From the NCBI GenBank assembly GCA_963931865.1, contig OZ007510.1:8099399-8163398 (forward strand): a stretch of DNA of 64,000 nucleotides. The letters run 5' to 3'. The DNA comes from Axinella damicornis (Eukaryota > Porifera > Demospongiae > Axinellida > Axinellidae). The notes beneath the pieces were generated by a model. The model did no database searches, was not told the origin of the DNA, and worked only from the letters and a program-made list of their open reading frames with translations. Of this stretch, positions 664-35,069 are shown piece by piece (within the stretch, counting starts at the first letter, position 1; each line of letters opens with the position of its first letter). A program made the position numbers and the translations under genes.

Positions 664-3600
664 TCACTGTGCTTGATCAAGTGTACAATACAGACGAAAT
701 TTCAGACAGTCATCCTTCAAGTATTGAACCATAGAATCAGAGTCTTGTTCGAGTTCAGAGTGCGAAATGAATCTAGAACAGCCCCACCCGTAGTTCTTCT
801 CACCAATGGTTACTCGACAACCATAGTCACAATCTTTATCATAGGAATAGTCATACATGTGGTGATTTTCGTCGGCAATCTGGTTAAGGAGTTCAACTGT
901 AATTTTCCCTTGAAATGGCCATGAGAGTTCATCGTCATATTTCCCTTTCATAATGCGGGTGAACAATGACAAGTGAGTTCCTTTTGCTTTCCCAGAGCCA
1001 TTAGCATAAACCTGGACACACATTTTGTATCCCCATGGATGGATGTAGAACGGCTCACTGTACCAATCTCTATCATTTTTCTTACGGTGTTCAAATGTAT
1101 TCATTGTGAGTAGTAGTGGCTCTGACGTAAAAGCTTGCTTGTTTTCTTCTTTACCTTTGCGCTGAAGCTTCATGCTGAGCTCCTCTATTTGTCTGCTCTG
1201 TTCCTCTATTTGTCGGTTCCGTTCCTCTAGTTGTCTGTTCTTTTCCTCAAGTTGTCTGCTCTGTTCCTCTATTTGTCTGTTCTGTTCCTCTATCTGTCTA
1301 CTCTGTTCCTTTACCTTCTTAGCAAGAAGCTGTATGTGGTGGGTCTGCTCTTCTTTCATGTGGGTCACTGTATCTGTGCGGCTCATTCGAACCATGCACC
1401 CGGCGTAGCTAAACTCACACGGAATGCTGCAGCCAGCAAGCAAATGCTTCTCGAGTTCCCCCAACTCTCCTGTCCAATCACACCCAATATCTTGGTATGT
1501 GCATCGAACTTGCAATTGATTGAGAGATCGCTGTAGCTTCTTGTCAGGAAATGTACTAAGTTCAGTGTTACATTCTGGGCATGGTTTTTTCACTGCTTGG
1601 ACCCATCCAATACACATTTTACAGAAGATATGGCCGCATTGTGTTTGTTGGGGCTCACGGAGTACTAGCTGACAGATGGAGCATTCAGTCTGAAGGATTT
1701 CTGGCGGAGGGGTGACAAACTCACAGTCATAGCCACCAAATTCTGGAGAAGGAGTTCTGCTCGTACATGGTTCATCTCCGCCTTCTTCTTTGGGATCAAA
1801 GGGTTTTCCCTATAAGGAAATCATTTTCTTAAGAGTAAAATTATAACCAGTAACAGCAAGAGGCATGATGACATCATCATCATTGCCGCATGATGATGAT
1901 GTCATCAGGCAATGATGATGATGTCATCAGGCAATGATGATGATGTCATCATGCGCTTTTGGTAACATGCAGTTATATGAGTCTTACCTTTGACTCTATG
2001 ATGTGCCTCTTTGGGTCAGGCTGGTCCATCTCCAGATCCTCTTTTAACTTCCTTTTCCTGTGCAGTTCAGGTAACATACTAGGTACCTGTATGTAGTGTA
2101 CGTATGTGTGTGTATGAAATTCCAGTGATTGCATCAGTGCATTTGTAAAAGTGCCGTGGCTTACTTTGGGTTAATGCAAACTTAATGGACCCTTGCAATG
2201 TCTACAAAACTTCCAAAACAAACATCTGGCTCCACAAGTTTGCAGAGCAACACCTCTGATTGCACTGATTACAGCTACACTTCCACATTCCTATATGGGT
2301 TTCAAATACCATCATCACAAAGGCTTAGGTTAACAGTTGTGTATGCTTACTGGTGTAGTCTTTTTGTCATCATAAACACAGTGGTCCCCCACTGTCACCT
2401 TCAGGATGCGATGTTTACGGAAAAAGTCGGTATCGACCGTTGCTGTCTTGACAAGCTGTGGAATCAGTCCTGATGGAACAAGCCATGTGATGGACACACA
2501 GCCTTTGCGAATACGATCAAGCAAGGCTGTGGGGGGAGAATCGGGCATAAGATAGTGACCGGAGAATGCCTCCCACAGCTCAGCAAGGTATTGTAGGCAG
2601 CAGTGGTCGATGAGATCAAGCTTCAATTCTACTGGACAGCAGTATCGACGGTCGTACTTTGCTTTCTCAGGTGGAGAAGGCATCATATCAGTGTCAACCT
2701 CAGGCTCAAAGAAATCCTCAACATTTGTTATAAGAAGGTACGACTTGACATCTTTTCGGTAGTTTTGGATCCAATTCTTCATCTCAGAGTCGCCCGCACC
2801 ATACGTCTTCACAATTTTTTCAAGTGGGCTATAATGGTAATAGTCCCACAGGCCATGGCGAGTGATGGCCTCAAAGATTTCTGTCAAACTCGTGGGAAGT
2901 GGGGGGATACAATCTCCTGGACGGAACTGAGTTTTGACAAAGAGCCAAATGTTCTTGACATCAACTCCATGTTCCAGCTTGCCACACACCTTTGTCTGCA
3001 AATCGGCAAACTTGCTGTTGATGGTTTGAAGGTTTTCACATGCAAAAACAGAAGACTTGCTCATGTTTTCCTTAGGTGAAACTGGAATAAATAAAAGGAT
3101 AGTTACGTACAATTAATGGTAGGCTAATTAGACCACGAAGACAATTTACATGCACAAAGGGACATAAATATTGCAGGATATCATATTACATGCCCTGATT
3201 TACATAAAGCATGCCAAATAGTATAATAGCCAGGAGCAATGTCTCTGTTTCAGTGGAAGACTCGCAAATTGCAAAATCACATGGTTAATTTTCATTCTAG
3301 CATTCCTGAACACATATACTAATAGATGCCACCAACGAATATGTGCCGCACAATCGGAAGTATTTAGCAAAATGAACGCCACCCTCTAATAAACGCCACA
3401 GCCAGTATGTGAGTCAAGCATGTGAGCAAAGTATTGAAACACGCGTGGACACTTGTAGTATTCGTCCAAGACAGTTTCAGTCTCCTTCAACTCATTTTCA
3501 TCCTCCTCCACAAAGGGATCTTCCTCGTCAGTAACTCCGGAGAGATGCGGCTTGGCAGTCTATTACATGTACAAGTGGTCATGCACCATGACAACATTCA

Positions 3601-5188
3601 TTTTCCCGAAAGCTCACTTTGGAAAAACAAATCGACATAAGACGGCTGGTGAGGAGGAAGATCCGGCACAACAAAACGTGAGCAGCCAAACTGCATGCAA
3701 TGAGCACCTCCACATTGGTGCCACACCCCCAATTGCATATGACTGATATCCCACACCTACAGTATTATAAGGCGACAAAAAAAGTGGTACAGCCAAAACC
3801 ATACTGGCCGTACCGGTCGCACCGGTGGTACTGGTCACACCGGCCCTGTTCTATTGACAGAAATGGGCCACCCAGTGCAAACCAACCTTCAAGAGCAAAC
3901 ACGGCCATGTGCTTCACCCTATGGGTGACACCCACCCCACTCTATATGCTAATGCAGAACCTATCTCCCAAGGTTGTCAGAAGCTGAGTATCGATGGCAC
4001 ATTAATGCACTCATGGCCCTTAAAAGTGTAACAGTGAACATGTTACGTACTGATGCTGGGAGAAAGCACTGGAGAAAAGAGTGGAGAAAAGAGTGGACCT
4101 GGGGAAGGACATAGATATAACCAAGTTTATTAGAGAGTATACAATCCACAGGCATGCACAGGCACCTTAACCCTTTACCAACATACAGGCATCATGAGAC
4201 TTTCAGTTTCATGATGTCACATCCGACAATGTCATTTGGAGAGTGAGTTAGAGCATAGATATTGGACTCTAATATCTATGGTTAGAGTCACGAATGTAGA
4301 AAGCATGGCTGTGTGCAGTTCTGTGTGCAGTTCCGTGTGAAGTTTTGAGGATGAAAACCGATAGGAACCTATAATCTAGGGTATAACTACAAAATTGACC
4401 TCCAATGTCTACAGTTGGTAAAGGGTTAATCAACAAAGGGTGCATGCACTATATAGCACCAGTTAACCTACTTGCAGTTCCTCCAGTACTTGTGCCAGGG
4501 GAAATGGGTGGGCCTGGGAGTACAAAGAGTAATAACATATTGCATGAATGCAGCGGCATGTAGTTTGCGAACATTATGTCAAGTTTTACAACAATATAAT
4601 ATATGTCCAACTACACCTTGTGACTTACATGCAGTTCCTCCTATGTACTTCCGATGTATTCTCTCAGCCAACGTGTTCTCTCTCATCGTTTGAAGAGCTT
4701 TCACCACATTCTCCCATGAGGCCCTGGGTGTGCATCGCAGCCACAGAGAAAAGGTTTCCTGCCTCCATCGACTACACCCTTCAGTAGGGTGGCTGCTCTC
4801 AATCCCGTCTAGTTCATAGTCTCGCACACCAAGGTTGAGTCCCAGACTACGCCAGTCACGTACACCAATCAGCTCATTACATAGGATCGCCGTATCCAGT
4901 GTTCCTGTAGTTGACAACATTCAAGAGTCAAAGCAAATGCACTGCTGCAAGCAGATCTTCACAACTAGATTATGCCCTTACATCATCGACCTGTACTCAC
5001 TGAATATTAACACAGATAGCTACGGCTTGATCCTAGATCAAAATTTCGAGAAACATCTTTCAGGCAACAGGGCTAGCAGTACATATTGCTCCATTGCTAA
5101 GGCAGGACCTGCATGAAAACCTAGCTACGGGTGCAGTGAGGTAACTATAATTTACATCCACCAAGGGAAGGACTTTACCTTCAGCCAT
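664..5188 (-). CDS. Gene A: Death domain - helical module - RING - TRAF zinc finger - coiled coil - MATH fusion protein
   Basis: Five-exon model, read on the minus strand: 5188-5179, 4904-4629, 3081-2351, 2086-1988 and 1809-664, all with GT/AG borders and matching phases (1,1,0,0). It gives about 753 aa. Exon 1 is only ATG GCT GAA G (MAE). Exon 2 (aa 4-96) is a Death domain with the usual W..LG..LG, IE, ETF..WL and ASW..VV.AL pattern. Exon 3 (aa 96-339) is an unrecognised helical module. Exon 4 is a short basic linker. Exon 5 holds a complete C3HC4 RING (about aa 415-453, C-G-H-I-F-C present), TRAF zinc finger (about 475-525), a coiled coil of near-perfect heptads (about 531-588) and a MATH domain (about 600-750). 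TRAF proteins normally act as trimeric cytoplasmic adaptors and E3 ligases; Death domains recruit other Death domains. A single protein with both is unusual. The three fused copies support each other's splice model. The tiny first exon is the least certain part. Confidence 0.8.
1861..1957. repeat. Palindromic gatgatgatgtcatc repeat in gene A intron 4
   Basis: An inverted copy (gcatgatgacatcatcatc, around 1863) faces three direct copies of a 28-bp unit containing gatgatgatgtcatcaggc (about 1889-1955). Together they can form a hairpin. A fragment of the same motif lies near 56725-56750. Confidence 0.75.
2351..3081 (-). other. Helical module exon of gene A (type I), family not recognised
   Basis: This 731-nt exon encodes about 243 aa between the Death domain and the RING part. 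Landmarks are LWDYYHYSPLEKIVKTYG, WIQNY..DVKSYLL, then a second half with YLAELWEAFS.HYLMP, SPPTALLDRI and CVSITWLVPS.LIPQL. It is the positional counterpart of the exon in genes B and D, although identity is low. I know no named family for it. Confidence 0.65.
4167..4429. mobile_element. MITE with TTAACCCTTTACCAAC terminal inverted repeats (gene A intron 2 side)
   Basis: The sequence TTAACCCTTTACCAAC at 4167 is mirrored by GTTGGTAAAGGGTTAA ending at 4429. The outer TTAA may be a target-site duplication. Related copies are at 20993-21132 and, decayed, at 14126-14739. Confidence 0.75.
4629..4904 (-). other. Death-domain exon of gene A (symmetrical phase 1-1)
   Basis: The exon is 276 nt (92 codons), flanked by CTACAG acceptor and GTAAGT donor. 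The Death-domain signature is visible: V.DWRSLGLNLG, then ELDGIE, ETFSLWL and ASWENVVKAL. The acceptor context (tcaactacag) is the same as in the matching exons of genes B and D. Confidence 0.8.
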
Positions 5189-5579
5189 GGCAGAAGTTGA
5201 GCGCAAAGTAATATCGATTGATTCAAGCAGGCTGCGGTCTGACTGAGAAAAAGGGGGTGGGTCAACGCCACGCCGCAGCGCAGGCCCCAGTTATTATCAC
5301 ATCCCATGCGGAAACGGGAAACGGTCTGGTACTTCATCAACAGCCTCAGGACCTTCAGTATATTGTTGCTAGGACACTTCATGAATGTCTGAGTATAATA
5401 TTATGGTCTTGTGATTTTCCCGAAGTGGACATTTTTTCCACTGAAGACAAGAGAGTCTTGTGTGACTTGTGTGTGAATTATTACACTGTAGACTAGTGTA
5501 GTGCAGGAGCGCATAATAACCTGCTCTTATATATCAATATGTACATAATAGGTGCAGTATCCAGGCCTGCTGTGCATGA
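5189..5579. other. Upstream flank of gene A, no gene seen
   Basis: The stretch sits directly before the proposed first exon of gene A on the minus strand and may hold its promoter. I see no core promoter motif I would defend. Further along, 6429-7185 also shows no gene. Confidence 0.4.
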
Positions 5580-6428
5580 TAGTAGGGGTGTCTCTAATCG
5601 CTGGACTGAATGGTCCAATGGAACATGGGAGCAGAATATGGGACTGGATTTTCAACTGGAACATGGGACTAGATTTTCAACTGAAATGTGGGACTTGAAT
5701 TACGATTTTTCATCTGGAACATGGGGACTAAAACATGGGACTGAAGCATGGGAACTGGCCAAATTGCCTCGTTCAGGATAGGACAGAAGCTAGGATTACT
5801 CAGTTACTTTGCTAAATTTGCTCCATAGCCCGGCTGTTGAAGTATGCATCTTTCCTTAAGTTTGGACAGGTCAAAGGTCATGTGTAATTTAATGAGTGAG
5901 CTTCAGCCATAGGACAGGGGAATATTCCTTCTGTTATCTGTGCTTCAACAAAGGCTGGAGTTTGAGTTTTGCCCCAATAAATGCTCTCCTAATCCTTTTT
6001 AGGAGTTAAGCAGGAAAAGTATTCTGATTAGAGCTGGTACTTTCCCAGCAAATGAATGCATGTTGCCTCAGAAGAAAGCAGTGGATACAGTTCATGCTCA
6101 AAGCCTGCTTCATTCCCACCTGGAGTCAGCCATAGCCACCTTTGTTGAAGCTTATTAAATATGCATGTGACCTTTGACCTTTGTGAACTTGAGGAAAGAT
6201 ATTGTTTCTTCAACAGGTTATGGAGCAACTTCAGCAATGTATAACTGATCTGATAAAGTAATCCTACATGTAGCTTCTGTCCTACCCTGAACGAGGCATT
6301 TTAGCTATAGCAGTTTAGCCAGTTCCCACATTCCAGACCCATGTTCTAGTTTCAAGTTTCAGTTGAAATCTAATCCTCCCATGTTGCGGTGGAAATCCAG
6401 TCCAGCAATTAGAGACACCCTAGTACTA
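5580..6428. mobile_element. Fold-back (long inverted repeat) element, about 0.85 kb
   Basis: The left end (tagtaggggtgtctctaatc) is mirrored by the right end (gattagagacaccctagtacta-like, to 6428). Inner parts also mirror: ggacagaagctaggattact matches agtaatcctacatgtagcttctgtcc, and caggtcaaaggtcatgtg matches catgtgacctttgacc. The left arm also holds local direct repeats of a tttcaactggaacatggga motif (5640-5720). It lies upstream of gene A. Confidence 0.75.
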
Positions 6429-7185
6429 CCATAGATCGATGTTTCTGCTTCAACTGCATGGGATCCAGATTGCGTGATGTGGATGACAGCCCTGGAGGAT
6501 TGAAATAAATCAGATCTAGTATCATACATACATTGTGCATATCCGAATGTATGGTAGCTATACCATAATGCAAGCACTATTACGTTTGGAGGACTTCAAC
6601 CTGTTTTTTTGTTTGCTAATCTTTAGTAAGCAGCAGGTGAACAAGCCTGAGAATGAGGCTAGTTGTAATCAACCATCCCATGAAAATACACTTTGTTGCT
6701 GGCAATAACACAACAACATGCTGCATCTCGGATTTTAAGTGAGTCAGAGGTAACTATACAGTGTCTTATATAGCGCCACGAAGTGCATGGATTGATACGG
6801 CAATATGTTACTTATTACACTTGTACGTAATTGCATGTGGATGTGCACTCAATGCATATGGTGTATCTGCTGTGAAGCAATTATACAGTGCAAAAAGGAT
6901 CGTTTTTTTTTAGAATTGCAGAATTGCATAGTTGCACACATGGAATTACGTTAATCAGGCAGATAACAGAACAAAACTGTCTGACTCTACTGTGTGGCCA
7001 TGGCTGTTTACTCACTAAGGTATACTCCCTTAGCCATGCAGCTCTGGCCAGTATTGGCCACATTCATCCACTTAGCATAAGTAGAATGATAATTATTATG
7101 CAACCACCTCATGGCTTGAACAACATGAAGTCAGCTAGGTGCACAGACCCACCTGAACTTATTACTGATGCATTATGCATGCTAA

Positions 7186-7871
7186 CATGAGGAGAATTCA
7201 TAGAACCACCTCATCATGTCCTCAAATGATCACTCCCACCTTTACCTGCGGCCTTAGGAAGGCCAGCCCTCCACTGCAAATTGACCAGTAGGATTCCCCA
7301 CTAGGAGCATGGGCTGGCAAACTCAAGTGGGGCTTGTCTGGGTCAAAGAACTCATGCTGACACAAGCAAACCTGCTATCGTATAATCACTCCCATGACTA
7401 CCGATGGCTTTGGGAAGCCCGACCCTCACCCAAAACTAACCAATGAGATTTCTACATGCGGACAAGCATAATGAAATTTGCCTGGCTCTGCGATAGCTCA
7501 CCCAAAACTAACCAATGGGATTTCTACATGTGGACAAGCAAAATGAAATTTGCCTGGCTCTGCGATAGTCATGACAGCAATGACGTGGCAAAGTGCATCG
7601 ATCAATTGGACTTCAAGTCAACATCCACTTGGTACGACCCAAGCTGACCAATGGGACTGCTACATGTAGACAAGGTTGTGAATTTGCCTGGATTCATGAC
7701 AGTTCTGACGTAAAATTCGATTGCTTGAAGTGGAAGTCAACATCCGCTATGGTTGCCATGTCTATTCTTGATAAAAGGGGGTGTTGTGGGCACGCAACAG
7801 AAAGACAACTACCTCACAATTTCTCCAAGCGCTGATACTTCTACTGAAAGGTTGACAAACAACTCCCTCAA
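7186..7871 (+). repeat. Conserved non-coding block upstream of small gene, copy 1
   Basis: The block begins catgaggagaattcatag and matches 22165-22665 and 39460-39960 closely. It contains caccttatcatg-like and cactcccacctttacct motifs and a 'ccaatgggattgctacatg' motif. In this copy a 60-70-bp part (around 7436-7560) is internally duplicated. A splice donor (cctcaaggtaat) ends it, so it may be promoter plus 5' UTR of the small gene. Confidence 0.6.
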
Positions 7872-8341: not shown

Positions 8342-8431
8342 ATGGCCGATAAACCACCTGACACTAACAAAGAGGACCAGGACTCTAACAAAGAGGACCC
8401 GGACACAAACAAATCTGATGGCAATGGATGA
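8342..8431 (+). CDS. Small acidic peptide gene, copy 1 (hypothetical, 29 aa)
   Basis: An exon starts at 8304 after a TTGTACAG acceptor, reads ATG GCC GAT and stops at TGA 8429-8431. The 29-aa product has two NKEDxD repeats and ends in SDGNG. A good donor (GATGTAAGT) follows at once, as in a spliced transcript. It has the same position and upstream block as the small genes at 22.8 and 40.1 kb, whose products end in DGNC or NGNW at the same site. I recognise no family; it could be non-coding. Confidence 0.35.
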   Translation: MADKPPDTNKEDQDSNKEDPDTNKSDGNG

Positions 8432-10800: not shown

Positions 10801-13800
10801 TCATACTGATTCAGTCTCCAATGGTACAGCATAGTCAGATAAATCCAGTTGTTTAGTGGATCTATGAGATGCAGGAAGCCCCACGCGTAAAACAGATACT
10901 CGGAACTCCAAACAATCGTCTTTCAAATATTGAACAGTGGAATTCTGGTCTGGGTCAAGTTCAGAATGGTGGATGAACTCTGGTTCCCCGACACCAGCAA
11001 TCCTTTTCTCACCAACTTCCACTCTCTGACCACAATTGCGTGAGCTGTCATCATAGCAAATGGTACACTTATGGTGCATTCCCTCTGTGGAATTTCCGGC
11101 ATTCTGATTAAGAAGCTCAACTGTGATTTCTCCATAAAATGGCCACGACAACATATGATCATATTCTCCTTTCATTAAACAGATGTATAATGATACGTGA
11201 GTGCCACGTCGTTTCTCATAACCATTAGCATCAATTCGGACACACAATTTATATCCTTGTGGATGGGTATAGAATGGATCACGGTCACTATACCATTCTG
11301 AATTATATCTTTTGTGAAGTTCAAATTTCTTCATCATGAAATGATGGTTGACTAGGAGCTGAGGACTAGAAGGCTCAGACTTCGAAACTAGTGGCAGTTC
11401 CGAACTATTGCTGTCTTGTAGTTGCTTGACTTCACCTGCTGGCTTTACAGGAAGCTTTTGCAACTGCTTTTGTTGTTCCTCTGTTTGTTTCTGATGCTGC
11501 TCTCGCAAGTGCCTATCAAGTATCCCTAGTTCTCCTGTCCAGCCACACCTACTGTTCTGATGCGTACATTGAACTTGCAATTTGTTAAGCATTTTCTGCA
11601 ACCTTCTGTCCGGAGATATGGTGAACTTGCTCTCTTTACAGACGGGGCATTGCTCTTCCTGGACCCGTTCAATGCATGTTGTGCAGAAGATATGGCCGCA
11701 ATTTGTTTGCATAGGTTCGCGGAGTTTTAGCATACAGATAGGGCATTCAGTTTGAAGAAACTTGGGCGGAGGGGTGACAAATTCACAGTCATAGCCACCA
11801 TATTCAGGTGTTTGTTGTTGTTCTGCTCCACCTTCGGCTCTGGGACTGTCCTACATTCACAAAAGGAAAGTATAGCACAGGAATTCATTGGTATAGAGCC
11901 CTTATGTTTATAGACAGGCAGATGAATGTGGTATTGCGGCAGGATACAGTAGCTTGTCCCCAACATCACAGTTATTTTAAGAGCATGAATATGTATATCA
12001 GTACAGTAGTGGCACATCTGGACAACTGTTGTGTATTTTATCTCACTTGGCACCATTATCATGTCTAGATCTATGGCTGCAATTGTATGGCAACACTAAG
12101 GTAGGCCATATAGGCATAGAGGTATATCACTGTAAAACGAGAAGGGTTGTTTTAACCAGGTTGTGGTCACCTCAGTTGCATCTCAGGGCCCCCTTGCATG
12201 GTGACCAAGGAGTGAGCACACAAGTGCAGCCTTTTAGTAGCTATCCAAATAGGAAAACCTAATAGAACAGCTGCACTTCCAAACAATGTGCATTCAAGCA
12301 GATCATTTACACTGCTTGACCACTATAGGTCCTCCAACAGACATACAGATGGGTAAACAATTAAGCTAAGTCACGTACCTATAGTTACGAAATGTTAGAA
12401 GTGAGGCTACACAACATTCGTGGTTGTGGATACATTCTTCGACCACCACTGTGGAGGAGGCACTGAGATGCAACTAGGGTGACCAGAGTCTGGTTAAAAC
12501 AACCCTTCTCATTTTAAAGTGTATGTGGACTACTTCCAATTAATCACAAACATGTGGAAGTAGTATCAACAAAATGTAAGGCTACTTTTATTGCGAGTAC
12601 CAATTTTAGCGAGTGCAGGTGAAATCGGAAAAATTCTGTTAAAAATCCATATCAACCAAATCTGAGGTACCTTTTTGTAATCACAAGTAATTAGAATAGC
12701 CTTAAGGACATCTCACTGTGGTGTATCGTACATTTTTGCATTGAAACGATGAAGATTGGCACAGTCTAATCAAAAATGTTGCCATCATGTTTTTCTCGTG
12801 AAGTACAACTTGCAAACCCATAACAATGCCTCACCATACCTCTTGCTATGTTACCGGAGACAAAGTATGAATGTTGAATTCACAGTGAAAACGTCTTGCC
12901 AAGTCTCGCGATAAACTAATGAAAGTATAGTCATGTACTGTACTGCTATGTGAGCCCATTAAGTATAGATGTACATGAATTTATAGTGTAGTGTAAGATG
13001 AGGCTGTACCATGACTTTCAGCTAAAGCAGCACACACCTTGGCAACAAACTCATAGTTTCCACATGTGAGCTTGATCACTCCCTCAGCCACCAGGGCCCT
13101 CTCTTGCTCACAGGACAGGGGGAATGTCTTCTGCTGCACAAATGAAGGAACCTGAAACATGACCTGGAAACAACCTTCCTTCACTTGAAGGAGACTTAGA
13201 ACAGGTGAGATATGGAGGATTTCACTGAGTCGTTTTCGGAAACCCCGTAGCTCTTGGACTGTGTAACTGTCATAGTGTGAATCTACCTTCACAAATATGC
13301 CAGTTTGGTCTTTTTCGCTCTCAGTTCCAAATTGTGGACATTCATAAATTCTTCGTTTGGCATACAGTTGAAAGTCATCCTTGTACTTCTGAAGTTCCTG
13401 TTTGTCTTCTTCTGTACCCAGTTCATTGATGATGTGATCAATGATGTCATAGTTGAAAAAGGAGAGATAGTGACTCAGTGCTATGAATATCTTTGGAATA
13501 GTGTTTGAATTCATTACATCAGTGTAGGAGGTTGGTGATTTTGGTTCTTTCTTCACTGGATCAAATGTTTCCAAGAATGTCAGGTGAGACAATAATTCAT
13601 CCACTGTCACTCCTCGCCTCATTAGTGACCTCATTACCACAGACTTAACATGCTCAAACTTCAACACTATCTCCTTGAATTCCAACGACAATATACCACC
13701 AAGTTCTTCTTCTTGTTCGCAGGTAAGTCGACTCAAGTCTAAATATGGGAATGAGCTAGCTGAGGTGATTGGTTTTGGGCACCCACTCTCAATGAAACTG

Positions 13801-16800
13801 AAGAATGTGCACTTACCACACCCGCACCCAATTGGTGACTCCTGAGATATCGACCTCTTTCTCTGAGTGGAAGAGCTGGGCCTGGGACTGACACTAATAC
13901 TTTCAGAAGTAAACACGTCATCAGATACTGTGCTGCTAGTGCTAGCACATGAGTCTTGTCGACTTCTGATGGAATCTTGCTTGGAGATTTGAGGAGTAGA
14001 AGCTGAAACACAGTAAGTGTATGGGTTAGAGAATAGCCTCTTTCCAAGTGGTAGGGGGCATAATTTACAGTACTTGGCTGGACACTACCACTATCACAAC
14101 TAACAACACCAGCTAATTAAATTTGTTAACCCTTTCATAGGTGAGAATTCTCAAGCATTTGAAAGATCTAGCCATTAATGTCTCTCAATTAAGCTCATTG
14201 CACTGACTTATACACGAATAAACATCTACTAGTTGACTTACTTTATCAATCTGAAAATCTAACATTAGATGCATGTAATCTACTTAAACATACCCTAGAT
14301 AAGGTTCCCATCGATTTTCACGCTCAAAACTTCACACAGAACTGCACACAGCCATGCTTTCCACATTCGTGATTCTGACCACACCCACTCGCTAATGTGT
14401 ATGCGATCAAGATGCTCGCGATGGTAACTCGCTCTAACAGAAAAATCAGCTTTGAACACTGGAATTCGAGGCTCTGCAAGGTGAGACCACTGTTTCCTAG
14501 GCCCATTTATGCTTAAAACCTGAGAAATGGCCTACCCGGCTCCAACCAAGGGCTGTTCAAAGCTGAGCCCAGACACGGCCATGCTGTTTGCACCCTTCGG
14601 GTGCACCCACCCACCTCCCCTTGCCCCGCCCTTTCTGCTGGTGCAGAGCCTATCTCCCAAGGACATTGCCGGATGTGACATCATGAAGCTGAAAGTCTCG
14701 TGACGCCATATGACGTCATTGGGTGGGAAAGGGCTAACAGAAAGTAGTGAAGCGACAGATCTTGGTGAAAGCATGTACTTTTTTTATCTCAGTGCAACAT
14801 CCATACACTATATTCCCAATCCCAGGTCCTGTGCATTGCATAAGCACTCCTTAACATGCACATCTGAAGATAATGCCATCTTACTTGTGACACTGCCAAG
14901 TGGACCTGTATAGAGCTTAGTACATTATATACAAGTAACTACTGTTGTGTGCCAAAAGCATATATGCATCCTCAAAATTAATATGAGTATACATCAACTT
15001 ACTTGCAACTCCTCCAATGTACTGCTGATCTACACTGTCGGCCGTAAAATTTTCCCCCATCTGTCGAAGAGCACTCACCACGTCGCTCCATGAAGCACTG
15101 GGTGTTCGTTGCAGCCATGTATCCAAGGTTTCCGTCTTTCGTCGATCATTTCCTTGGTAGTCTTTTTCGATCTTTCTAAGTATATACGGTGGTATGCCGA
15201 GATTGAATCCCAACATGAACCAGTCTGTAACTCCTTCCAGTGCATTAGAGAGATTCAGTATATCTGGTTTCCCTGTAGTTGAAAATAGCCCTACGCTTAT
15301 ATACAATGATGTGGTCTTATGGCCAAGACCCTGTTCTAGTGGGGATCGAGTTGTCTTGGATCTTGCAGTTGATCCCATTTAAATATCATGCTGTTGAAGA
15401 AACCCTGTGAAACCCACACTTTGATGAGGCATGCATTTCTATCACACTAGTGAACACCTGCAGTAGACCACTACTGGTAGTCTAATTCTAATTGGGATTA
15501 GCAAGATGTTTGGAGAATAGTTAGTGCCCACGATTTGACCAATCTACAATGCAGGATAAACCACTATATGGCAAGTCCCCAGACCCTTTTTCACTCTTCC
15601 ATAACAGGGTCTGGCCTAGCCTCGTCCCCAGGCCTCCTCACAGATTTTATCTCGCAGCCGTGGAGAAAAATCGTTCTCCACGGCTGCGAGCATGATAAAA
15701 TCTGGGAGGAGGCCTAGGAACGAGGCTAGGTCTGGCCCATAAGACCATCTAGTCTCGTGCCCAGACCACACCACCCCCCGAGGGGAGAGACAGTATGGTG
15801 AACGAAGTCGAATTTCTTGGGCTTATTACCGGAATGTGGTAAGGACCAATGAGGTTGCGAGATTGTTAATAATTACATAGTAATCGCTATGAATACTCAT
15901 AAGCTGGAGAAGACAACAGCCAAGAGCCTTTGCCATGCCAGTTTTCCCTTAGCGCTGACTGTGTAGGGCAATGCTACGTTGTGGCGACAACTTCTGAAGA
16001 CTTTGCACTCGATTGTGCTAGTTATGAGCTCTGTGACATCGCTTATGAAGGATCAAATTGAGAGCTTTGGAAGTGAGGTCAGCAAAGGGATCAAGTACAA
16101 CGAAGGGCCCCCTCTAGGCGCAAGCTAATGCTGGCCCTAGCCCTAAAGGGCCATTCTTCGCATTTGACTCCTGAAAGGACTCAACAAACAGGAAGCAGAT
16201 TCCATGGACGGCGAAGGATGCTTCAAAAATCTTCTATGGGCCATGGGTGAGCGGCAAAAGGTTAGTACATCTTCTCTCCCGATATGAGTAGCCATGATTG
16301 CGCTTGGTCGACACGGGAGTCTTCAGCAGACGCTTTTGCAGGCACTTAACACCACAGGATTACCGTATAGCGGGTTATTTTCGTGGGTGGAAATTTTTGT
16401 GAAATGCTGGATACGGTCGTCAGAATTAATTTTCGTGGTTCTAATTTTCGTGCCACCTGATTTCAAGCTAGCGCTATCGGCGCGGATGACGTATTATGAG
16501 ATTAGTACACGAGGTTTGATGGCCGGAGTACAGTTTCAACGACATGCGACATTGCGCTTCACTGTCTAGCGTGAGTGCGACGCTACTTCGTCAGTAAAAG
16601 ACATGTGGGGAGGCCAGTGTTGGAGAAGAACTAACATGCTAACGCGAGAATGGCAACCATATTGATCGATTTGCTGTGGCGAGAGTTACTGGCCTCGTTT
16701 TTCGTCGCCGGGGTCCAGTTATCTAGCTATGGTCCAATTCGATCACAACGCGAGGGACAGCTGGTGATAGAGGATCCTGTCAATCGAGGACACTGTCAAC

Positions 16801-18661: not shown

Positions 18662-20470
18662 TTACTTGTTTGCGAGCCTCAGTAGCACATCACGTACTCG
18701 GAACTTCAAACAACCATCTTTCAAGTATCGAACTGTGGAATCATACTTTGGGTCAAGTTTAAAATGGGGGATGAACTGGGATTTCCCCCATCCAGGACCT
18801 TTTTTGCCAACTGTTACTCTCTGAGCGTAGTGATCAGGAATGGTTTCATCATAGCTTACGATGCACTCGTGTCTGCCTTCTTTAGGATCATCTGTGTTCT
18901 GATTGAGAAGGTCAACTGCGATCTTACCTTGAAATGGCCACAGCAGGTCATCATCACATTCTCCCCTCATGAAGCAGGTGTACATTGACACATGAGTTCC
19001 ATGTTCCTTATCAAAGCCATTGGCGTAAATCTGGACACACATTTTGTATCCCTGTGGATGCGTATAGAATGGCTCACTGCACCAATCTTCATCATTTGCT
19101 CTACGAAGTTCAAATTCACTCATCGTGAAGCTGTGGTCGATCGATACTTGTCGCAGAGGTACAGCAGACGGTTTACGGGGTGTTGGAGTGTCTAGTAGCA
19201 GCTGCAGTTCCTCATTCTCCCCTATTAAATCAGAAATGTGTTTGACAATCGGTTTAGGCAATTCGTTCCAGAGCTGCAACCCAACGTTTGTCGCTTGGGT
19301 CTTTACTCTTTGTAGTTTTTCATTTTGGCTCTTAAGCGTTGTTGTTAACTCTTCTATTTGCTTGTCTCGTTCCTCTAGCTTCATTTTGACTTCTTCTATT
19401 ATCTGGTCTCGTCTCTTCAGTGAATCAGCAAGAAGCTGTACATGGTGAGGAGCTTCATGCTTCATGTGGGCTGTCATGTCTTTGCGAGGCATTTGAGCCT
19501 TGCAACCAGCATCGCTAAACTCACATTCGATGTTGGTAAATTCACAGCCAACAAGCAGCTTGTCACATACCGAGGGATTGACATTCAAGTGTGTATCAAG
19601 TTTCCCCAGTTCTCCCGTCCAAACACACCCCCTTTTCTGGTGAATACATCGAACTTTGAACTCATTGATGGATCGCTGGAATGTTTTGTCAGCGAAGGTG
19701 CAGAACTCTGCCTCATTACACTCTGGGCACGGCTTTCCCTGCTCTTGGACCCTTTCAATGCAGGTGTCACAGAAGATGCTGCCACAACATTTTGTTTGGT
19801 GGGGGTTGTGGAGTATTAGTGAACAGATACCACATTTTGTCTGAAGGCCGTCTACTGGGGGAAGCTCAACAAACTCACAGTCATACCCACCATGTGTGCA
19901 GATGGGAGGCACTTGATCTCCGTAACTCTGATTGGCACAACCTGTTGAATTCAAGTACAAGCAAGATGGATGATGATACCCCCTTCAGATCACCAAATTA
20001 CAATAAAAATTTCTAACCCCCTTAGATACAAATATTCATCTGCATGAGCGGCCATTCATGCTCATTTTTACTATTGACGTGGATATTGGTCCGGCAGGAA
20101 GTACATACTTTAGGTATAGGTACCGGAAACACGCGCGCATCTAGAACCGGCCCTGGCCCTAATATACCCTAACCCATGCATTGCTCTACTTCCTGCCGGA
20201 CCAATCATCCACTTCGTTTTACTATTGCTAAAGCAGCACTCTGCATGCATAAAGCCATGGCATAGTGCCGGGGTGAACGAAGTTCCCGCTCATAACATAA
20301 TAGTCATTGTGTGTCCCGCCCCTATTCAGGTGGGTCTGGCAACGCGAGACCAGCCGGTAACGATCTGGAGCTCTGACTGTATCCTGCACCTGCATAATTA
20401 TGCATATGCGCAGTTTAACAACCATCGTACCTTCGCTTTGAGGTGACGATTTCTCTTCAGATTCGGCCAT
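18662..20470 (-). CDS. Gene C: TRAF-family protein without Death domain (degenerate RING, zinc fingers, coiled coil, MATH)
   Basis: Two exons on the minus strand, 20470-20431 (MAESEEKSSPQSE, ending in phase 1) and 19941-18662, give about 439 aa. The N-terminal RING (about aa 44-83) keeps its cysteines but has CCGSIFC where the fusion genes have CGHIFC, so the zinc-binding His is Ser. TRAF zinc fingers follow (CIHQKRGCVWTGELG, then C-rich fingers and a HMKHEAPHHVQLL motif), then a coiled coil (about aa 185-225) and a MATH domain (SEPFYTHPQGYKMC, LLWPFQGKIAVDLLNQ, WGKSQFIPHF). It is probably a cytoplasmic trimeric adaptor. Its E3 activity is doubtful. Its closest relative here is gene E, by duplication. 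Exon 1 ends in the same phase as exon 1 of the fusion genes. Confidence 0.87.
20093..20207. mobile_element. Hairpin MITE in gene C intron 1
   Basis: The sequence ggtccggcaggaagta is mirrored by tacttcctgccggacc. Its interior (ggtaccggaa, ggccctggccctaatata) recurs without these ends at 58036-58110. Confidence 0.75.
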
Positions 20471-27191: not shown

Positions 27192-27932
27192 TAGTCTAGC
27201 GGGCTAGCCCCTCGAATTTTCCCCAGCACGGATTGACTCACGTGACCGCACGGGGAAAAAGAGGGTCTAGAAACTTTGGACCACTTTGCTTTAGTCTCGT
27301 GCCCAGACCCCACCCCTCGCGGGAAAGAGGGTCTGGCGACTTTGCGCAGAAGCCTCGGTCTTCATTAAAAATTCATACTTTTTAGGCAGGAATTTCAGAC
27401 TGCCAATGAAATCGTAGAGAATTCAATTTTGTCTTTATTAGGAGCGAGAAGTAGAAAATTCAAATTTCTCTTGCAATTACGTATATCATTTCACGCGTAG
27501 GACTTCCGGTTCTGTCCGGTTTCAGGCGGTTTGCTGAGCTATGAATATTCAATGAAGACCGAGAATGTTGCTGAAAGTCACCAGACGGATATTCCGTACA
27601 CGTTTCCGGCTGGGCACGAGACTACTTTGCTTGGGCTCTACTCGAAATCGGGTAGAGCCAATCAGATTGCAGCTGTCACGTGGTGATCTTTCAAATCGCT
27701 CGGTACAAGCGTTGAGGACTGTCTGAAGTTGCCTGCGATTGCTGTTCTCCTGCACAACAACCAAACAGACACAAGTACAAACAGCCAACGAGGTTAGCGG
27801 GCCGGAATCAACTGACTGCAGTTGCAATATTATGACGTAAACGGATGTGATGTAAGCTTAATTGCATTCTTTCGTACCGAGTAAAGTGGTCCAAAGTTTC
27901 TAGAGAAAGCGAAGGGCTAGCTTGTTAGACTA
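27192..27932. mobile_element. MITE (TAGTC-AGCGGGCTA family) carrying an insertion, 10-bp target duplication
   Basis: The ends tagtctagcgggctagccc and gggctagcttgttagacta are inverted repeats. The 10-bp sequence cacgatgagc flanks it at 27182-27191 and 27933-27942. The 27292-27624 element is inserted inside. Confidence 0.88.
27292..27624. mobile_element. TAGTCTCGTG-family element inserted in the 27192-27932 MITE
   Basis: The ends tagtctcgtgcccagacc and ggctgggcacgagacta are inverted repeats. It is flanked by ctttgctt (or actttgctt). The uninterrupted sister MITE at 26148 reads gaccactttacttgaactc through the same point. Confidence 0.9.
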
Positions 27933-28433
27933 CACGATGAGCTAGCTAGGCCTACCGATTGTCAGCATGCAGAATGAGATACCGTAAGTTGTGGCAGTAA
28001 TGTTAGAAATAGGGTGTGGTCAAGTTGTATAAATTAGAAGCACGACTTTCACGCAGCTTTTCTATTCTGAAATAAGCCTTCAACAAGGGCCTTCACTGCT
28101 CAAACTGCTTGGACAGACTGACAGACAGACGGACGGACGATCACTCTACCCCTGCTGCGCATGCGCACGGCGGGGTAACAAGGTGCGGTGTAGTGTGGCT
28201 CAGCTGCACAGTGTAGTGGATCTGTGGTCACGTATAGCTCAGACCAGAATCCCATGGGATCAAAGAAAGCAAAATAATGTAGGCCTATGTTCAGCAGTCC
28301 AGTGTGTACACTATAATTTTGTAGTAATTGCTATAAACCATGCCCAGATACCCACCCATACAGTCGTGAGCTGCCTATGAGTACAGTAGCTCCAGTGTAA
28401 TCTTCCTTTCAGCACTAACTTGAGCTTCATTCC

Positions 28434-28533
28434 TAGCCTCGTTCCCAGGCTCCTCCCCAGCTTTTTGTCGCATATTGTACAGTATGCAGCAAAAAGCTGG
28501 GGAGGAGCCTGGGAACGACTCCGAACGAGGCTA
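28434..28533. mobile_element. Hairpin MITE with 9-bp target duplication
   Basis: The hairpin runs from tagcctcgttcccaggctcc to gaggagcctgggaac...cgaggcta. Direct repeats cttcattcc flank it. Confidence 0.9.
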
Positions 28534-29425
28534 CTTCATTCCCCCATTACAACAGCAGGTATAGTGGGTAGGAGGTTCAAAGGCACCGCCTGTGGTTTAT
28601 ATTCTGAAGCCATGTAGCTAGCCGCAACAGCTGTGGGTTTATAGAATTTAGAGCATGATGACTCAGTGTTTATGGAAATTAGACCATGGCTCAGCACATT
28701 CTGGAGTGTTGGAACATTCTGGAGCATGGAAGGATCTCTAATTTAGTTTCGTGCCCAGACCATACCCCCACAAGACTACTCTAATTCAGGTAGCTATAGT
28801 ACAAGCCAGTTTTCATGGTTTATGGGAAATCCGAGGCTGTTCATTTAGACCACTCGGCTGCGCCTCGTGGTCTAAATAAACAGCTTCTCATGGTTATTTC
28901 CCATAAACCACATGCACTCAAGGCCGTAGTCTAACAGCTATAACGTACACTATAGTCTCTTAATTGAGCTAGACCACTGTGCAAGAAGTTGCAGGCAGAC
29001 CAAAGTGAAAGGTGAGAGAGGGTCTAGTTTTGTAGAAGCCATGGTGAAGTGCAGCTGCACTTAAAGCTACTCAACTACTGATCCAAAACAAATTAGTGGT
29101 GACTGGTGAACTAGTCACAAATACTACAATGACATTGTTAGACCACCTTTCAGTTCACTTCTGCCAACACTTTCTGTGCACGGGAGAGAATGGTATAGTT
29201 TGATTGGATAATAGGGTGTTAATAGAGATTGCGTACGTTTTACTGTACGTACGTTTTTCATCAATCACCCTATGTACCATTTCTCATCACATGATGCCAA
29301 ATTTTGACTCTATAGATTGTGAGCATGGTTGTCGAGTAACAGATTTATGTTAACAAGGAAACTGGAACAAAGAGTACAACAATTCAAGCATGTTCCTTAC
29401 AAATAAAATTAATGATGAAAATACA
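28534..29425. other. Downstream flank of gene D, with a hairpin at about 28816-28912
   Basis: No coding exon was seen. The palindrome catggtttatgggaaat is mirrored by atttcccataaaccacatg, and tttagaccactcg is mirrored by cgtggtctaaa inside it. The 29214-29245 run recurs at 31141-31172 (agggtgttaatagagattgcgtacg). Confidence 0.6.
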
Positions 29426-32400
29426 TTACTGTGCTTCTTGAGGAGTCTTTATTGGTATAGGAGCAAGCAGTTTGGTGGTTCCATGAGATGCAGGAAGTTC
29501 CACATGTAAAACAGATACTCGAAACTTCAAACAATCATCCTTCAAATATTGAACAGTGGAATCTTGGTCTGGGTCAAGTTTAGAATGGGGGATGAACTTT
29601 GATTCCCCCGCCCCAGCAGCCATTTTCTCACCAAGTACTACTCTCTGGCCATAATAACGACTGCTGTCATCATAGCGAATGGTACACTTATGGTGTGTTC
29701 CTTCCCTGGAGTGTCCTTCATTCTGATCAAGAAGCTCAACTGCAATTTCTCCATGAAATGGCCATCGGAGTTCATTATCATATTCTCCTCTCATGACACA
29801 GATGGATAATGACACATGAGTATGTTTTTTCGTATCACCATTAGCATCAATTCGGACACACAATTTGTATCCCTGTGGATGTGTATAGAATGGATCACTG
29901 AACCACTCTGCATTAGCTTCTTTGAACTGTTGAAATTTCTTCATCGTGAAATGATGGTTGACTTCGAGCTGAGGACGGTGAGTCTTAGAATGCGAAACAA
30001 GCGGCTGTTCTAAACTATGTTGTTGTGTCCGTTGGGTCATATGTTGTCTGACTTCAACTTTCATGGGAAACATTTGTAATTGGTTCTCTTGTTCCTTTGT
30101 TTGTTTCTGTTTCTCAGGGAGATGATGCTGAGCTCGAGGCTGTTCTTCTGAAGTGAGAAGCCCTGAACTGCCAAACTCACATTCAATGGCTAGGTGTCCA
30201 TCAAGTTTCCCTAGTTCTCCAGTCCAGCCACACCCACTTTTCTGATGTGTACAACGAACTTGCAAATTGCTAACCAATTTCTGCAACCTTTTGTCACGAG
30301 ATAGGGGGAATATTGTCCCTTTGCATACTGGACATTGCTCATCTTGGACCTGTTCAATGCATGTTTTGCAGAAGGTATGGCCACAACTTGTTTGCACAGG
30401 TTTGCGGAGTGTTGATAAACAGATAGGACATTCCAGACACTTTGGCGGAGAGGTGACAAACTCACAGTCATAGTCACATTCAAGTGGTTGTTGTTCTGCC
30501 CCACCTTCAGCTCTGGGATTGCCCTACATTCACAAAAAAGGATGTATTGCATAGGAATTCATTGTCGCATACTTGTTACTTAGCCATAGCCTCAGAATAT
30601 AGGCAGGATTTTTGTTTGGCAGTCTGGTAGCCATTTAATAATTATGTATGAACTAGAGTGTATTCATTGATTAGTTACCCCATCCTGTCTATTCTGCCTT
30701 GGTGCACAAAAAAATCAATATTGGTAATGTGCTATCCACTATGTGTTACTTTGGAAGGGGTGGAGTCATTAAACTGATAACAGAAAGTAGCTAAAAATAG
30801 CAGTGAAAATAACTGCCTTTGTAGTACGAACTCAGCACTATAAGTAGGGCTTCACAGGTATTAGGTAAGTGTGCACGGTGTGGCCACAATAATTGCATCC
30901 CAAGCACTTCAGACATTTTATATGCGTACATACATGTACATTTGCCCAGATTTACACCAAGGGCGTATCGAGCCGCCAAAATGTACGCATGTAAAATGGC
31001 TGAAGTACGCCCTTGTTTACACCTAGTCTCACGGGCCAGCCCACTTCTGCACGGGGAAGAAGTGGGCTGGCCCGCGAGACTAATTTCCACCCCACACTGC
31101 AAGATCACTTCTTGCATGCATGCATATGCGGGGTCATGATAGGGTGTTAATAGAGATTGCGTACGTTTACTGTTTTGTATGGCAGAACAGCAGCTTGTTC
31201 CAGTTAAAGCTCGTTGCAGACTCACCACTTTCACTATGAATTCAACCGCTTCAGACTTTTGGCTCCAGAAGCATGTCAGTTACACACTTGTGGGGTGTAC
31301 AGTTATGAGGCTTTGCCATGGGAAGCATGCAGTGATGTGGATCGATGTCTGGTTTATTGAACTTTGACTAGCAAAGGACAAATAACTTGATGGTGAGATA
31401 CGTACACCATAATAATAACACGTCCATAATCATCAGGTTAATAGGTATAGTGCCCAGCCAAGGCAATGTGCTGTCACTCTGTAGGTAAGACCCACTCGGG
31501 CCACTTCCCCCCCCCCCCCCCCCCTTTCTGCCGTCCCCTTCTGCCAATCTAAAATTGTTGGAAGTGGCATCAGATTATTATAGGTACTGCTATAGGTCAT
31601 GAATAAGCTATGGGCCTAATTACAACTGCCTATGGTATGTATGCATCCGCTAGCTTCCTCATCTGCTTTACATGTACAAAAGTATAGCCTCTTTCCCAGG
31701 CTCCCCCCCCAGCTTTTGTCGCATACTGTATGGGACAAAAAGCTGGGAAGGAGCCTGGGAACAAGGGGAAAGTATTCATGGAGGCAATCACCCCTCGGCC
31801 TCACAGGTGATACTGTTTGGCCAATAATGGGAGTACAAGCATTCAAGAGCTCACTAGTCTTGTTCTTTGGCCAGGAATCAACCAATATGCTACGTACAGT
31901 GATGGTCATGATATACCCCACATCACCAAATACTGTACATACTCCTGTACATACTCCTGTACATACTGTCATTACATTCCTGGTATAGGAAAAAATTGTG
32001 CGGCGTAAATAATCAATAATTAATATAATGTTTGAGTACTTGGGATTGGCCTGCAAAGATTCTGACTACACCGCCGTGATCGCTATCAAGCACTGATCTG
32101 AATGTAAAACGTTGGTGCTGAAACTCACCTTGGTGGTGGAGATATGAGCACTTTTGTCTCGCCATTGCTCGAGCGCTCTCTTTGACTTCCGGTGGCAGTA
32201 TACCGTTCTTAGGAAAGGCACACGAAGTTTCTGACCACAAGGCTGTGCTCACTGTCGTTCATTGACGCTTACATGCCGAAACTCACCGTGCTGGTGAGTG
32301 CCGTACTAATGTCTTGTCTTCATTTTGGTCGCCATTGCCCGCGATCGACTGAGTGTGGTTGCCACGTGGCATGTGCGTTAATTGGAACGAATTTTAATAC

Positions 32401-34802
32401 TTAGCTTGCACTACGGCGAGTCGCAACCAGGCGCGGCTACCAGGAGTGCGGTTGCCCCTCGATATATTAAGATTTTAATGTGTGTGTGTGTGTGTGATGG
32501 AAGTGGGATGTTCGTAAGTGAGATGTTCGTGGGGCGGGACTAGACTAGTGACGCACGACCTTCGTATTTGAATCTCGAACTCCACAAAGAATGTTTGAGA
32601 ACATTGGGCATGGGCTGGAATCTTCCAGAACAGGTGAGGCTACTAGGCACGAGGCTAGTGAGGCTACAAGCAGATGCAATCGGGGAGCAGCAGTCGAAGC
32701 GGACGCAATCCGGGAGCTGCAGTTGAAGCGGACGCAATCGGGGAGCAGCAGTTGAAGCGGACGCAATTGGGGAGCTGCAGTTGAAGCGGACGCAATCGGG
32801 GAGCTGTTGAAATCGGGGAAGAGCAGCCAAAGCGGACGCAATCGGCGAGCAGCAACTGAAGTGGACACAATCGGGGGGCAGCAGCTGAAGCAGACGGAAA
32901 CGGGGAACAGCAGTCACAAAGCAGATCGATGCAATCGGGAAGCAGCAGCTGAAGTCGATGCAATCGGGGAGCAGCAGCTCTGCACAGAGAGCTGTCCGGT
33001 GCCGGATTACTCACGTAGGCGAACAAGAGGGAAGTAGCGAAGCTACTTGTACATATTACTCATTTAGGTGTAGCGTACTGTGAGATGAGACTATGCTATG
33101 ACTTTCTGCTAAAACAGTACATACCTTGGCGACAAACTCATAGTTTCCACATGTCAGCTTGATCACTCCCTCTGCCACCAGGGCCCTCTCTTGGACACTG
33201 GACAGGGGAAATATCTTCGGCTGCACAAATGACGGCACCTGAAACATGAGTTGGAAACAACCCTTCTCCACTCGACAGAGACGTAGAACACCTTGTGATG
33301 AAATATGGAAGATTTCACTAAGTCGGTGTTGGAAACCACGCAGCTCTTCGACTGTGTAACTCTCATAGTGTGAATCTACCTTCACAAATACATCTGCGTG
33401 TCCCGTTTCACTCACAGGTCCAACCTGTGCTGGGCATTGATATATTCTTCGTTTGGCGTACTGTTGAAATTCATCCTTGTACTTCTGAAGTACCTGTTTG
33501 TCTTCCTCTGTACCCAGTTCATTGATGATCAATTCAAGTACGTCATAGTTGAAAAAGGAGAGATAGTTACTTAATGCTATGAAAACCTTTGGAATGGTCT
33601 CTGAGTTCATTAGATCAGTATATGAGGTTGGTGATATTGGTTCTTCCTTTACTGGATAAAATGTTTCCAAGATTGTCAGGCAGGACAATAACTCATCCAG
33701 TGTCACTCCTCGGCTCATTAGTGACTTCCTTGCTACAGACACAACATGCTGGAACTTGAACATCATTCTCCTGGATTCAAACTGCAATCTACCACTGAGC
33801 TCTTGCTGTTTTTCATGGGTAAGTCCACTTATGTCCAAATAAGGAAATGAGCTAGCCGAGGGAATTGGGTTTGTGCACCCACACCTGAAGAACGTGCACT
33901 CACCACACCCACACCCAAATGGTTGGCCCTCACTCTGACTGGAAGAGCTGGCCCTGGGACTGACACTAGCACCTTCAGAAGTAAACACGTCGTCCGATAC
34001 TGTGCTGCTAGTGCTGGCGTATGAGTCTTGTCGGCTTCTGATGGAAGTTTGCTCGGAGGTTTGAGGAGTGGAAGCTGCGGTCACTGCATATGGGTTAGAG
34101 AATAACCTCTTTCTGAGAGTGGTACATAACGAACACTATGTAGAAGGTGAATACTAACACAAGTTTTACTGTGCCGTGTCCCGAAAGTATGTCCATCCTC
34201 AAATATATGAAGTCATTCCCCTTTATTGGCAAGCCTGCTCCCTATTTGATCAGACGGAAAATAGGGTGCAGGAACCTGACTGCATGCAGTACAGAGAAAT
34301 GTATACATCAACTTACTTGCAATGTAGTGCTGACGTACACTCTCGGCCACAGTATTTTCCCCCATCTGTCGAAGAGCACTCACCACATCACTCCATGAAG
34401 CTCTGGGTGTTCGTTTCAGCCATGAAATAAAGGTTTCTGTCTTTTGTCGATCATTTCCTTGGTAGTCTTTTTCAATCCTGTTAAGTTCAGATGACGGTAT
34501 GCCGAGCTTGATTCCCAACTGGTGCCAATCGGAAACGTCCACCAGTGAATTGGAGAGACCACGTACATCTGGTTTCCCTGTAGTTGACAATAACACATAC
34601 CCATTGGACTGGCTCATCCCACAATCCGGATTAGCAAAACTTTGACATTATGAGCCCGCAATGCACAATTGGACCATATTTTATATACAATGCATATGGC
34701 AAGTCCACAAATGCTTTTATAACAGGGTCTGGCCTAGCTATATATGATACAGGGTCATCTCAGCCTTGACATACTAGCCAACTGCAAAAAAACCCAAAAA
34801 AC

Positions 34803-34834
<32 letters not shown>

Positions 34835-35069
34835 GTCTGACAAGAAAAAATCTCGGAAGGAGGCTGGGAATTGGTTTACACGATTGTACGAGGATGTGGA
34901 CAGTGTGCAAAAGGTTCACTACAAAGTGCATGGGCCCCTAGATATTAGACGGCGGGGGCGGGTGAGAAAGGACACATTTTATGCTGTGGCCCAAAATATC
35001 AATCCTACCTTGATTTTCAGACGAGGTATGGTTCTTCAACATGCCATTCGCGCTCGGACGTTCAGCCAT
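29426..35069 (-). CDS. Gene D: Death domain - helical module - RING - TRAF zinc finger - MATH fusion protein
   Basis: Four-exon model on the minus strand: 35069-35009, 34577-34317, 34074-33125 and 30523-29426, with phases 1,1,0 in agreement; about 789 aa. Exon 1 (MAERPSANG...SENQ) is the same length as in gene B. The Death domain is aa 21-107 (VSDWHQLGIKLG, ETFISWLKRTPRASWSDVV). The helical module is aa 108-424. The last exon has a complete RING (CPICLSTLRKPVQTSCGHTFC), a TRAF zinc finger, a short Gln/Lys-rich coiled segment and a MATH domain. Gene D is the sister of gene B; the next gene upstream, E, is the sister of C. The 2.6-kb last intron contains a minisatellite and a possible unseen small exon. 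An in-frame ATG at 34617 is an alternative but less likely start. Confidence 0.8.
30958..31082. mobile_element. Two adjacent small hairpin MITEs in gene D intron 3
   Basis: The first (30958-31015) has ends caagggcgtatcgagcc and gaagtacgcccttg, with tttacac on both sides. The second (31024-31082) is an almost perfect palindrome from tagtctcacgggccagccc to gggctggcccgcgagacta. Confidence 0.8.
31685..31778. mobile_element. Hairpin MITE (decayed right end)
   Basis: The sequence tttcccaggctcccccccagctttt is mirrored by aaaagctgggaaggagcctgggaa. The outer end has lost the perfect TAGCC/GGCTA pairing. Confidence 0.75.
32660..32980. repeat. Minisatellite, about 27-30-bp unit, in gene D intron 3
   Basis: About ten imperfect copies of a unit containing gaagcggacgcaatcggggagcagcagtt. 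The long open frames on both strands here come from the repeat period. Confidence 0.85.
33125..34074 (-). other. Helical module exon of gene D (type II)
   Basis: The exon encodes about 316 aa and aligns with 13038-14002 of gene B throughout. It starts with a Ser/Thr-rich linker (STPQTSEQTSIRSRQDS), has a short Cys motif (FGCGCGECTFF), then helices (LSFFNYDVLELIINELG, ELRGFQHRLSEIFHIS) and a final beta-like part (GCFQLMFQVPSF, GVIKLTCGNYEFVAK). Confidence 0.75.
34317..34577 (-). other. Death-domain exon of gene D (phase 1-1)
   Basis: The exon is 261 nt with CTACAG acceptor and GCAA/GTAAGT donor. It aligns closely with 15003-15272 (IEKDYQGNDRQKTETF, SWSDVVSALRQMGEN), three codons shorter at the end. 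Confidence 0.8.
34797..34834. repeat. (AAC)n microsatellite in gene D intron 1
   Basis: About ten caa/aac triplets follow an A-rich stretch. Confidence 0.9.

Follow-up and report, generated by a model that had tools for sequence, protein, structure and literature searches.

Candidate one-chain Death, TRADD-N-like and TRAF signalling proteins in the sponge Axinella damicornis

Among the systems closest to the genes presented here are Amphimedon proteins that carry Death-like domains and TRADD-N, fusions of TRADD-N to a TRIM ligase, and the human pair TRADD and TRAF2. The genes lie in a stretch of 64,000 nucleotides from Axinella damicornis (contig OZ007510.1, C6:8099399-8163398; hereafter the window), which holds five TRAF-type genes (A-E), all on the minus strand. 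The preferred reading, held with reasonable confidence, is that gene A, together with A2 (a copy of it) and some twelve other loci, encodes signalling proteins in which a Death domain, a DED-like domain, a TRADD-N-like alpha/beta domain, a RING, a TRAF-type zinc finger and one to many MATH domains would follow each other in a single chain. Genes B and D probably share this layout with a different subtype of the DED-like/TRADD-N-like module.

In the pertinent passages of PMC8195603, Amphimedon is credited with 357 proteins having Death-like domains, TRADD-N and variable C-termini, MATH being named among the latter. These proteins, of the NCOA6 clade, show an N-terminal Death-like unit, then an alpha/beta TRADD-N, a variable C-terminus and a large lineage-specific expansion, and by layout the Axinella Death/TRADD-N-like/TRAF genes belong with this kind. 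The differences are that the passages of PMC8195603 consulted on RING, E3, ubiquitin and TRAF2 name no RING or TRAF end for the Amphimedon proteins, and that here arrays of MATH domains occur in the same genes as the module. The same source states that organisms with TRADD-N expansions have no matching MATH expansion, a statement on which the present genes bear. It also describes fusions of TRADD-N to TRIM ligases in the DEDD2/TRADD-like clade; these likewise join TRADD-N to a RING-type ubiquitin ligase, but with TRIM rather than TRAF and in a different TRADD-N clade. Since both the MATH C-termini of Amphimedon and the TRIM fusions were already known (PMC8195603), the novelty implied by an earlier note on this DNA is reduced. 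Compared with these published passages, what appears to be new is the end from RING to MATH, the MATH arrays, the conserved splice frame and the presence of the module on a NACHT protein. A full-text literature search, with subscription papers mostly outside it, returned no report of a Death/TRADD-N-TRAF fusion by title or start of the abstract.

In the human pair, the TRADD-N domain binds the MATH domain of TRAF2, as stated in the same passages (PMC8195603). TRADD and TRAF2 together have the elements seen here, namely Death, a TRADD-N-type fold, RING, zinc finger and MATH, but they are two proteins, whereas the Axinella genes would place these elements in one chain, with an extra DED-like domain and in a changed order. 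This comparison gains strength because the middle module resembles both the DED of FADD and the N-domain of TRADD. FADD also pairs a Death domain with a DED, in the order DED then Death; here the order is reversed and a TRAF end is attached. As for the sponge NLRs, the text available from PMC12909245 gives their N-termini as CARD, Death or, otherwise, mostly no identified domain, and TRAF and MATH are absent from it; the likeness lies in a copy on C4 (L097) with the same module ahead of NACHT.

Gene A and the fold of its middle module

Gene A (5188-664, minus strand) consists of five exons:

5179..5188, minus strand: exon 1, ATGGCTGAAG, with a phase 1 donor
4629..4904, minus strand: Death-domain exon, GT-AG and in frame (PF00531, expect value E 8.6e-7)
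2351..3081, minus strand: module exon, with the DED-like half at about 3019-2729 and the TRADD-N-like alpha/beta half at about 2647-2366 (residues 21-117 and 145-238 of the model)
1988..2086, minus strand: linker exon of 33 codons
664..1809, minus strand: last exon, with RING at about 1686-1570, a sub-threshold zinc finger, a coiled coil seen by eye and MATH at about 1065-697

The junctions proposed for it in the earlier note (5179/4904, 4629/3081, 2351/2086 and 1988/1809) are all GT-AG and yield one frame of 753 amino acids. The linker has two basic patches, HRKRKL and DPKRH, resembling a nuclear signal by eye only.

The domain content that had been read in A, B and D was largely borne out by Pfam. 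The Death domain (PF00531, cut-off 22.6 bits) scores 29.4 bits in A, 32.8 in B and 44.4 in D (E 8.6e-7, 7.6e-8 and 1.8e-11), RING models exceed their cut-off in all three genes, and so does MATH/TRAF-C (PF21355, E 3.4e-30, 4.9e-29 and 3.2e-29, respectively). The exception is the TRAF zinc finger (PF02176), which reaches 21 bits in gene A, under the cut-off of 27, and is absent from the Pfam listing for B and D. The RING ligands of A, B and D are of the C3HC4 type, with CGHIFC or CGHTFC present, and the CGH is also kept in A2 and in a copy at C6:7979.

Gene A2 is a copy of gene A to the left of the window, with its module at C6:8090096 and the same exon order, so the cluster of TRAF genes extends beyond the left window edge. 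Both copies are 85% identical in the Death domain, 96% in the module, 97% in the linker and 94% in the TRAF exon, where the ratio of nonsynonymous to synonymous rates (dN/dS) is 0.31. No first exon of A2 was found within the stretch examined.

The module had been described as an unassigned helical unit. Its structural model agrees in one half, which is helical and DED-like, but the other half is predicted to be alpha/beta and TRADD-N-like, with the order beta-alpha-beta-beta-alpha-beta plus one extra short helix and strand. The TRADD-N motif described in PMC8195603 is a small residue plus serine or cysteine in the turn between beta2 and beta3. In the model of the A module this turn holds G193 and C194, and in the module alignment named A2 (35 members) C194 is invariant and G193 nearly so; in predicted topology and turn motif, the A module resembles TRADD-N. 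The model of the B module is poor (predicted local distance difference test score, pLDDT, 54).

For the module, neither Pfam nor hhalign gave any signal of kinship to TRADD-N (PF09034, PF13820, human TRADD), and because these profile tests were negative the domain is called TRADD-N-like and not a member of TRADD-N. The DED signal in hhalign is weak, at a probability of 4%, yet above all 100 column shuffles; the DED family PF01335 overlaps weakly with seven module copies (E 0.3-3.4) and is not among the Pfam families listed for the 35 alignment members. Foldseek against the PDB returned nothing at E <=0.001 (best 0.022) and no DED among the 50 matches listed, and profiles of the module against the sequences of solved structures gave nothing at E <0.1. 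No TRADD entry stands among the 50 matches listed by VIA-align, where absence proves nothing. TPR_BSK1_C, which matched 14 of the 35 members (best E 1.8e-4) among scattered weak Pfam names, is taken as chance.

Linkage of module and TRAF end across the genome

The 226 Mb genome contains at least 131 matches to the A module and at least 172 to the TRAF exon of gene C, the TRAF search having scored 96 of 434 candidates. Their linkage was counted for 25 close and 47 distant copies among the 131 A-type modules and for 35 of 122 B-type modules, against part of the listed rows of the 172 TRAF matches, further rows of the same frames being left out; one TRAF position (C13:10004547) is approximate. 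In 14 of the 25 close copies, a RING/TRAF/MATH frame follows on the module's own strand at a distance of no more than 10 kb; two of the 25 have one upstream on that strand, and none has one on the opposite strand. About 0.002 TRAF frames per module would be expected by chance. These 14 loci are spread over seven large contigs and, through tandem duplication, are not independent of each other. A tree of 41 RING segments, of which 14 come from fused loci, does not unite the fused ones in one clade: four changes are needed, two of them forced by well-supported branches. No usable segment came from L058, L060, L062, L067, L072 or L074, which are absent from this tree; L072 and L074 are fused loci.

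Splice sites agree with the linkage. Together with gene A, junctions were read at 13 of the 14 coupled loci; at the other 12, the junction immediately preceding the RING exon is GT-AG throughout, with introns of 134-3706 nt. Of 29 module loci, 28 have a candidate phase 0 donor; candidate phase 0 acceptors precede 12/12 RING exons, and at 19 of 21 loci the Death exon has a phase 1 donor. The splice logic that the earlier note took A, B and D to share held when the phases of B and D were computed from their exon coordinates: as in A, they are 1 before the module and 0 before the RING exon.

Among 5.8 billion proteins searched, 59 relatives of gene A were obtained, of which Dysidea avara is the only named sponge; the other names are those of a snail and of some vertebrates. 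One of these searches scored only candidates sharing most words, and another took module-size proteins only. A single protein spans both parts: P0006 (625 amino acids, on a 6.5-kb contig) runs from the module into RING and MATH, and its RING is of the B/D type. The beginning of P0006 looks intronic, so this entry is probably an open frame called mechanically from genomic DNA, with module and RING in one exon. Another relative, P0124 (346 amino acids, 1.6-kb contig), probably derives from a transcript and joins the Death domain to the module, ending a few residues past it.

The chief result that speaks against the fusion being the sole product is P0124, and the reading as one chain faces further points that weigh against it, beginning with the negative kinship and Foldseek searches and the weak DED signal described above. 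No transcript across the junction of module and RING was found in the two protein searches able to show one. Within 10 kb, 11 of the 25 close A-type modules have no TRAF match (the list of TRAF matches being incomplete), and eight of those 11, read 2.5-3 kb onward, show no TRAF either; a TRAF frame follows one of the 47 distant A-type modules and two of the 35 B-type ones (B and D only). The dN/dS is 0.91 for the module of A and A2 (on 13 changes) and 0.93 for the Death domain of B and D. Finally, the eight RINGs read from multi-MATH-type genes have CCGT.FC, with the histidine off its canonical place (a shifted histidine is present in two of the eight); because of this, ligase activity of these RINGs is doubtful, and the proteins may be scaffolds.

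A rival explanation of these data is two neighboring genes, a Death/DED-like/TRADD-N-like adaptor and a separate TRAF, that never share one mRNA. The end of P0124 after the module would fit such an arrangement, as would the 11/25 A-type and 33/35 B-type modules without TRAF within 10 kb downstream and the TRAF genes C and E, which have no detected Death domain or module upstream. Against two genes speak a module donor that stays conserved although the frame after it does not, RING exons that in A, B and D begin at phase 0 acceptors with no ATG ahead of the RING, the contiguous P0006, and a module-TRAF intron of just 184 nt at C13:2097. This explanation is considered improbable.

Better placed, although not favored, is the possibility that one gene gives both forms through alternative splicing at the module donor or retention of the intron behind it, the short adaptor acting as a brake or decoy. 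It is kept because P0124 stops just after the module; in B and D the module frame stays open past the donor, for another 18 and 22 codons respectively, which would allow it. On the other side, the tails beyond the donor vary in length and frame between copies, and P0124 comes from another contig.

The claim that adaptor and TRAF end form one chain is supported for gene A by the genome-wide coupling of 14/25 modules with compatible phases and by P0006; the fusion in A is very probably real.

Other arrangements of the module and of MATH were also observed. At L096 (C9:10099800-10102400), among the eight A-type loci read onward without a TRAF, the module is followed by what may be another Death-like stretch and by a hydrophobic segment resembling a membrane span, both seen by eye. 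Arrays of MATH domains include four in P0001 (Pfam) and frames of up to 2026 residues with repeated MATH matches in the genome search for TRAF; at C8:11247927-11252951 and other loci on C8, C7 and C11, long uninterrupted frames have MATH repeats behind one RING that lacks the histidine in its canonical position. L097 (C4:4224300-4227800) has the module in front of NACHT in one long frame, with leucine-rich repeats (LRR) under the cut-off, and the C4 cluster around it contains 37 more module matches, mostly in long frames.

Genes B and D

Both genes resemble gene A in exon order:

15003..15272, minus strand: gene B Death-domain exon (PF00531 match)
13038..14002, minus strand: gene B module exon, ending AAG|GTGTGT, phase 0
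10801..11850, minus strand: gene B exon with RING (about 11748-11638) and MATH (about 11280-10906); its frame opens at the acceptor, with no ATG before the RING
35009..35069, minus strand: gene D possible exon 1, with ATG and a phase 1 donor
34317..34577, minus strand: gene D Death-domain exon (PF00531, E 1.8e-11)
33125..34074, minus strand: gene D module exon, ending AAG|GTATGT, phase 0
29426..30523, minus strand: gene D exon with RING (about 30433-30323) and MATH (about 29905-29522), no ATG before the RING

No convincing first exon was found for gene B with the single search pattern used. A scan of a gene B intron for bacterial promoters was uninformative for an animal gene.

Genes A, B and D had been counted as three independent copies, which does not stand: B and D, 73.5% identical in the module and 66.2% in the TRAF part, are duplicates of each other in the repeated units E-TRAF/D and C-TRAF/B, and represent one event. 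Their module subtype is about 21% identical to the A module in the alignment (tblastn of the A against the D module, E 0.001).

The module reading frames of B and D continue past the donor to stops at 12981 and 33056, respectively, and these stops were considered as gene ends. This was rejected: 13 of 14 further B-type copies retain the GT at the donor position, and what lies beyond it varies in length and frame. Because of this conservation, the stops are probably intronic.

For these two genes alone, a further explanation is that the cluster's tandem duplication brought a B-type adaptor gene next to a TRAF, and that the adaptor gene splices to another exon. A short acidic GEEDESEPEDTG-like exon follows the module in five of the six other B-type copies inspected, with an unrelated further exon after it in two of those five, and B and D are the only ones among 35 B-type modules with a TRAF downstream. 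Behind B or D themselves, however, no match to the acidic exon or to the unrelated one was found, both duplicates retain the donor as well as the phase 0 acceptor of the RING exon, and P0006 has a RING of the B/D type fused to a module. This origin is seen as rather unlikely. The fusion of adaptor and TRAF end in B and D is held to be plausible and somewhat favored, with less certainty than in gene A because they are duplicates and only 2/35 B-type modules have a TRAF downstream. At two of the B-type loci, L075 and L085, the short acidic exon is followed by an exon reading EPVAELRGPVFQPAL...

Proposed signalling and neighboring features

If these genes are translated as one chain, the Death and DED-like domains would polymerize with upstream Death-fold proteins, including the NACHT receptors that carry the same module. 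Clustering of the chains would bring their RINGs together and start ubiquitin signalling, and the RINGs that keep their ligands (those of A, A2, B, D and the copy at C6:7979) could act as ligases once gathered. The MATH domains may bind a substrate, a scaffold or another partner, or may contact TRADD-N-like domains in the way that human TRAF2 contacts TRADD. The step from adaptor to ligase, a binding event in vertebrates, would thus be built into a single polypeptide. A bolder version is a covalent TRADD-TRAF2 unit, in which TRADD-N-like and MATH domains interact within or between copies of the chain, MATH arrays dock many adaptors or NLRs, and NACHT receptors signal straight to a TRAF ligase; this is regarded as speculative and unlikely.

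The genes would represent a natural fusion, in a probably early-branching animal, of two proteins that in the textbook account of inflammatory signalling meet by binding. This makes it possible to test whether the interaction of TRADD-N with MATH predates the vertebrates, and which partners the hundreds of sponge proteins of the TRADD-N type bind.

Other features of the window are listed below:

18662..19941, minus strand: gene C TRAF exon, acceptor by eye, no Death domain or module found upstream
35720..37002, minus strand: gene E TRAF exon, acceptor by eye, no Death domain or module found upstream

Upstream of C and E, tblastn with the Death and module sequences of A, B and D found nothing. 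Their RINGs read CCGSIFC, without the usual histidine. Both genes (window 18662-19984 and 35720-37063) have a common TTGAATTCAACAG stretch with a possible phase 1 acceptor by eye; the splice-acceptor script lists none for C, and for E it gives other candidates, in phases 2 and 0. These phase 1 acceptors carry no weight in the argument for fusion.

Frames at 49025-49492 and 60113-60394 of the window resemble a VWA3-type gene by eye, with Pfam VWA_3 below the cut-off for the former and no family for the latter. A tandem array at 55031-55747 has a unit of 42 bp in 16.9 copies with 96% matches, several of its frames being open, and a small RRM protein is encoded at 57418-57711 in one open frame (PF00076, E 3.6e-23).
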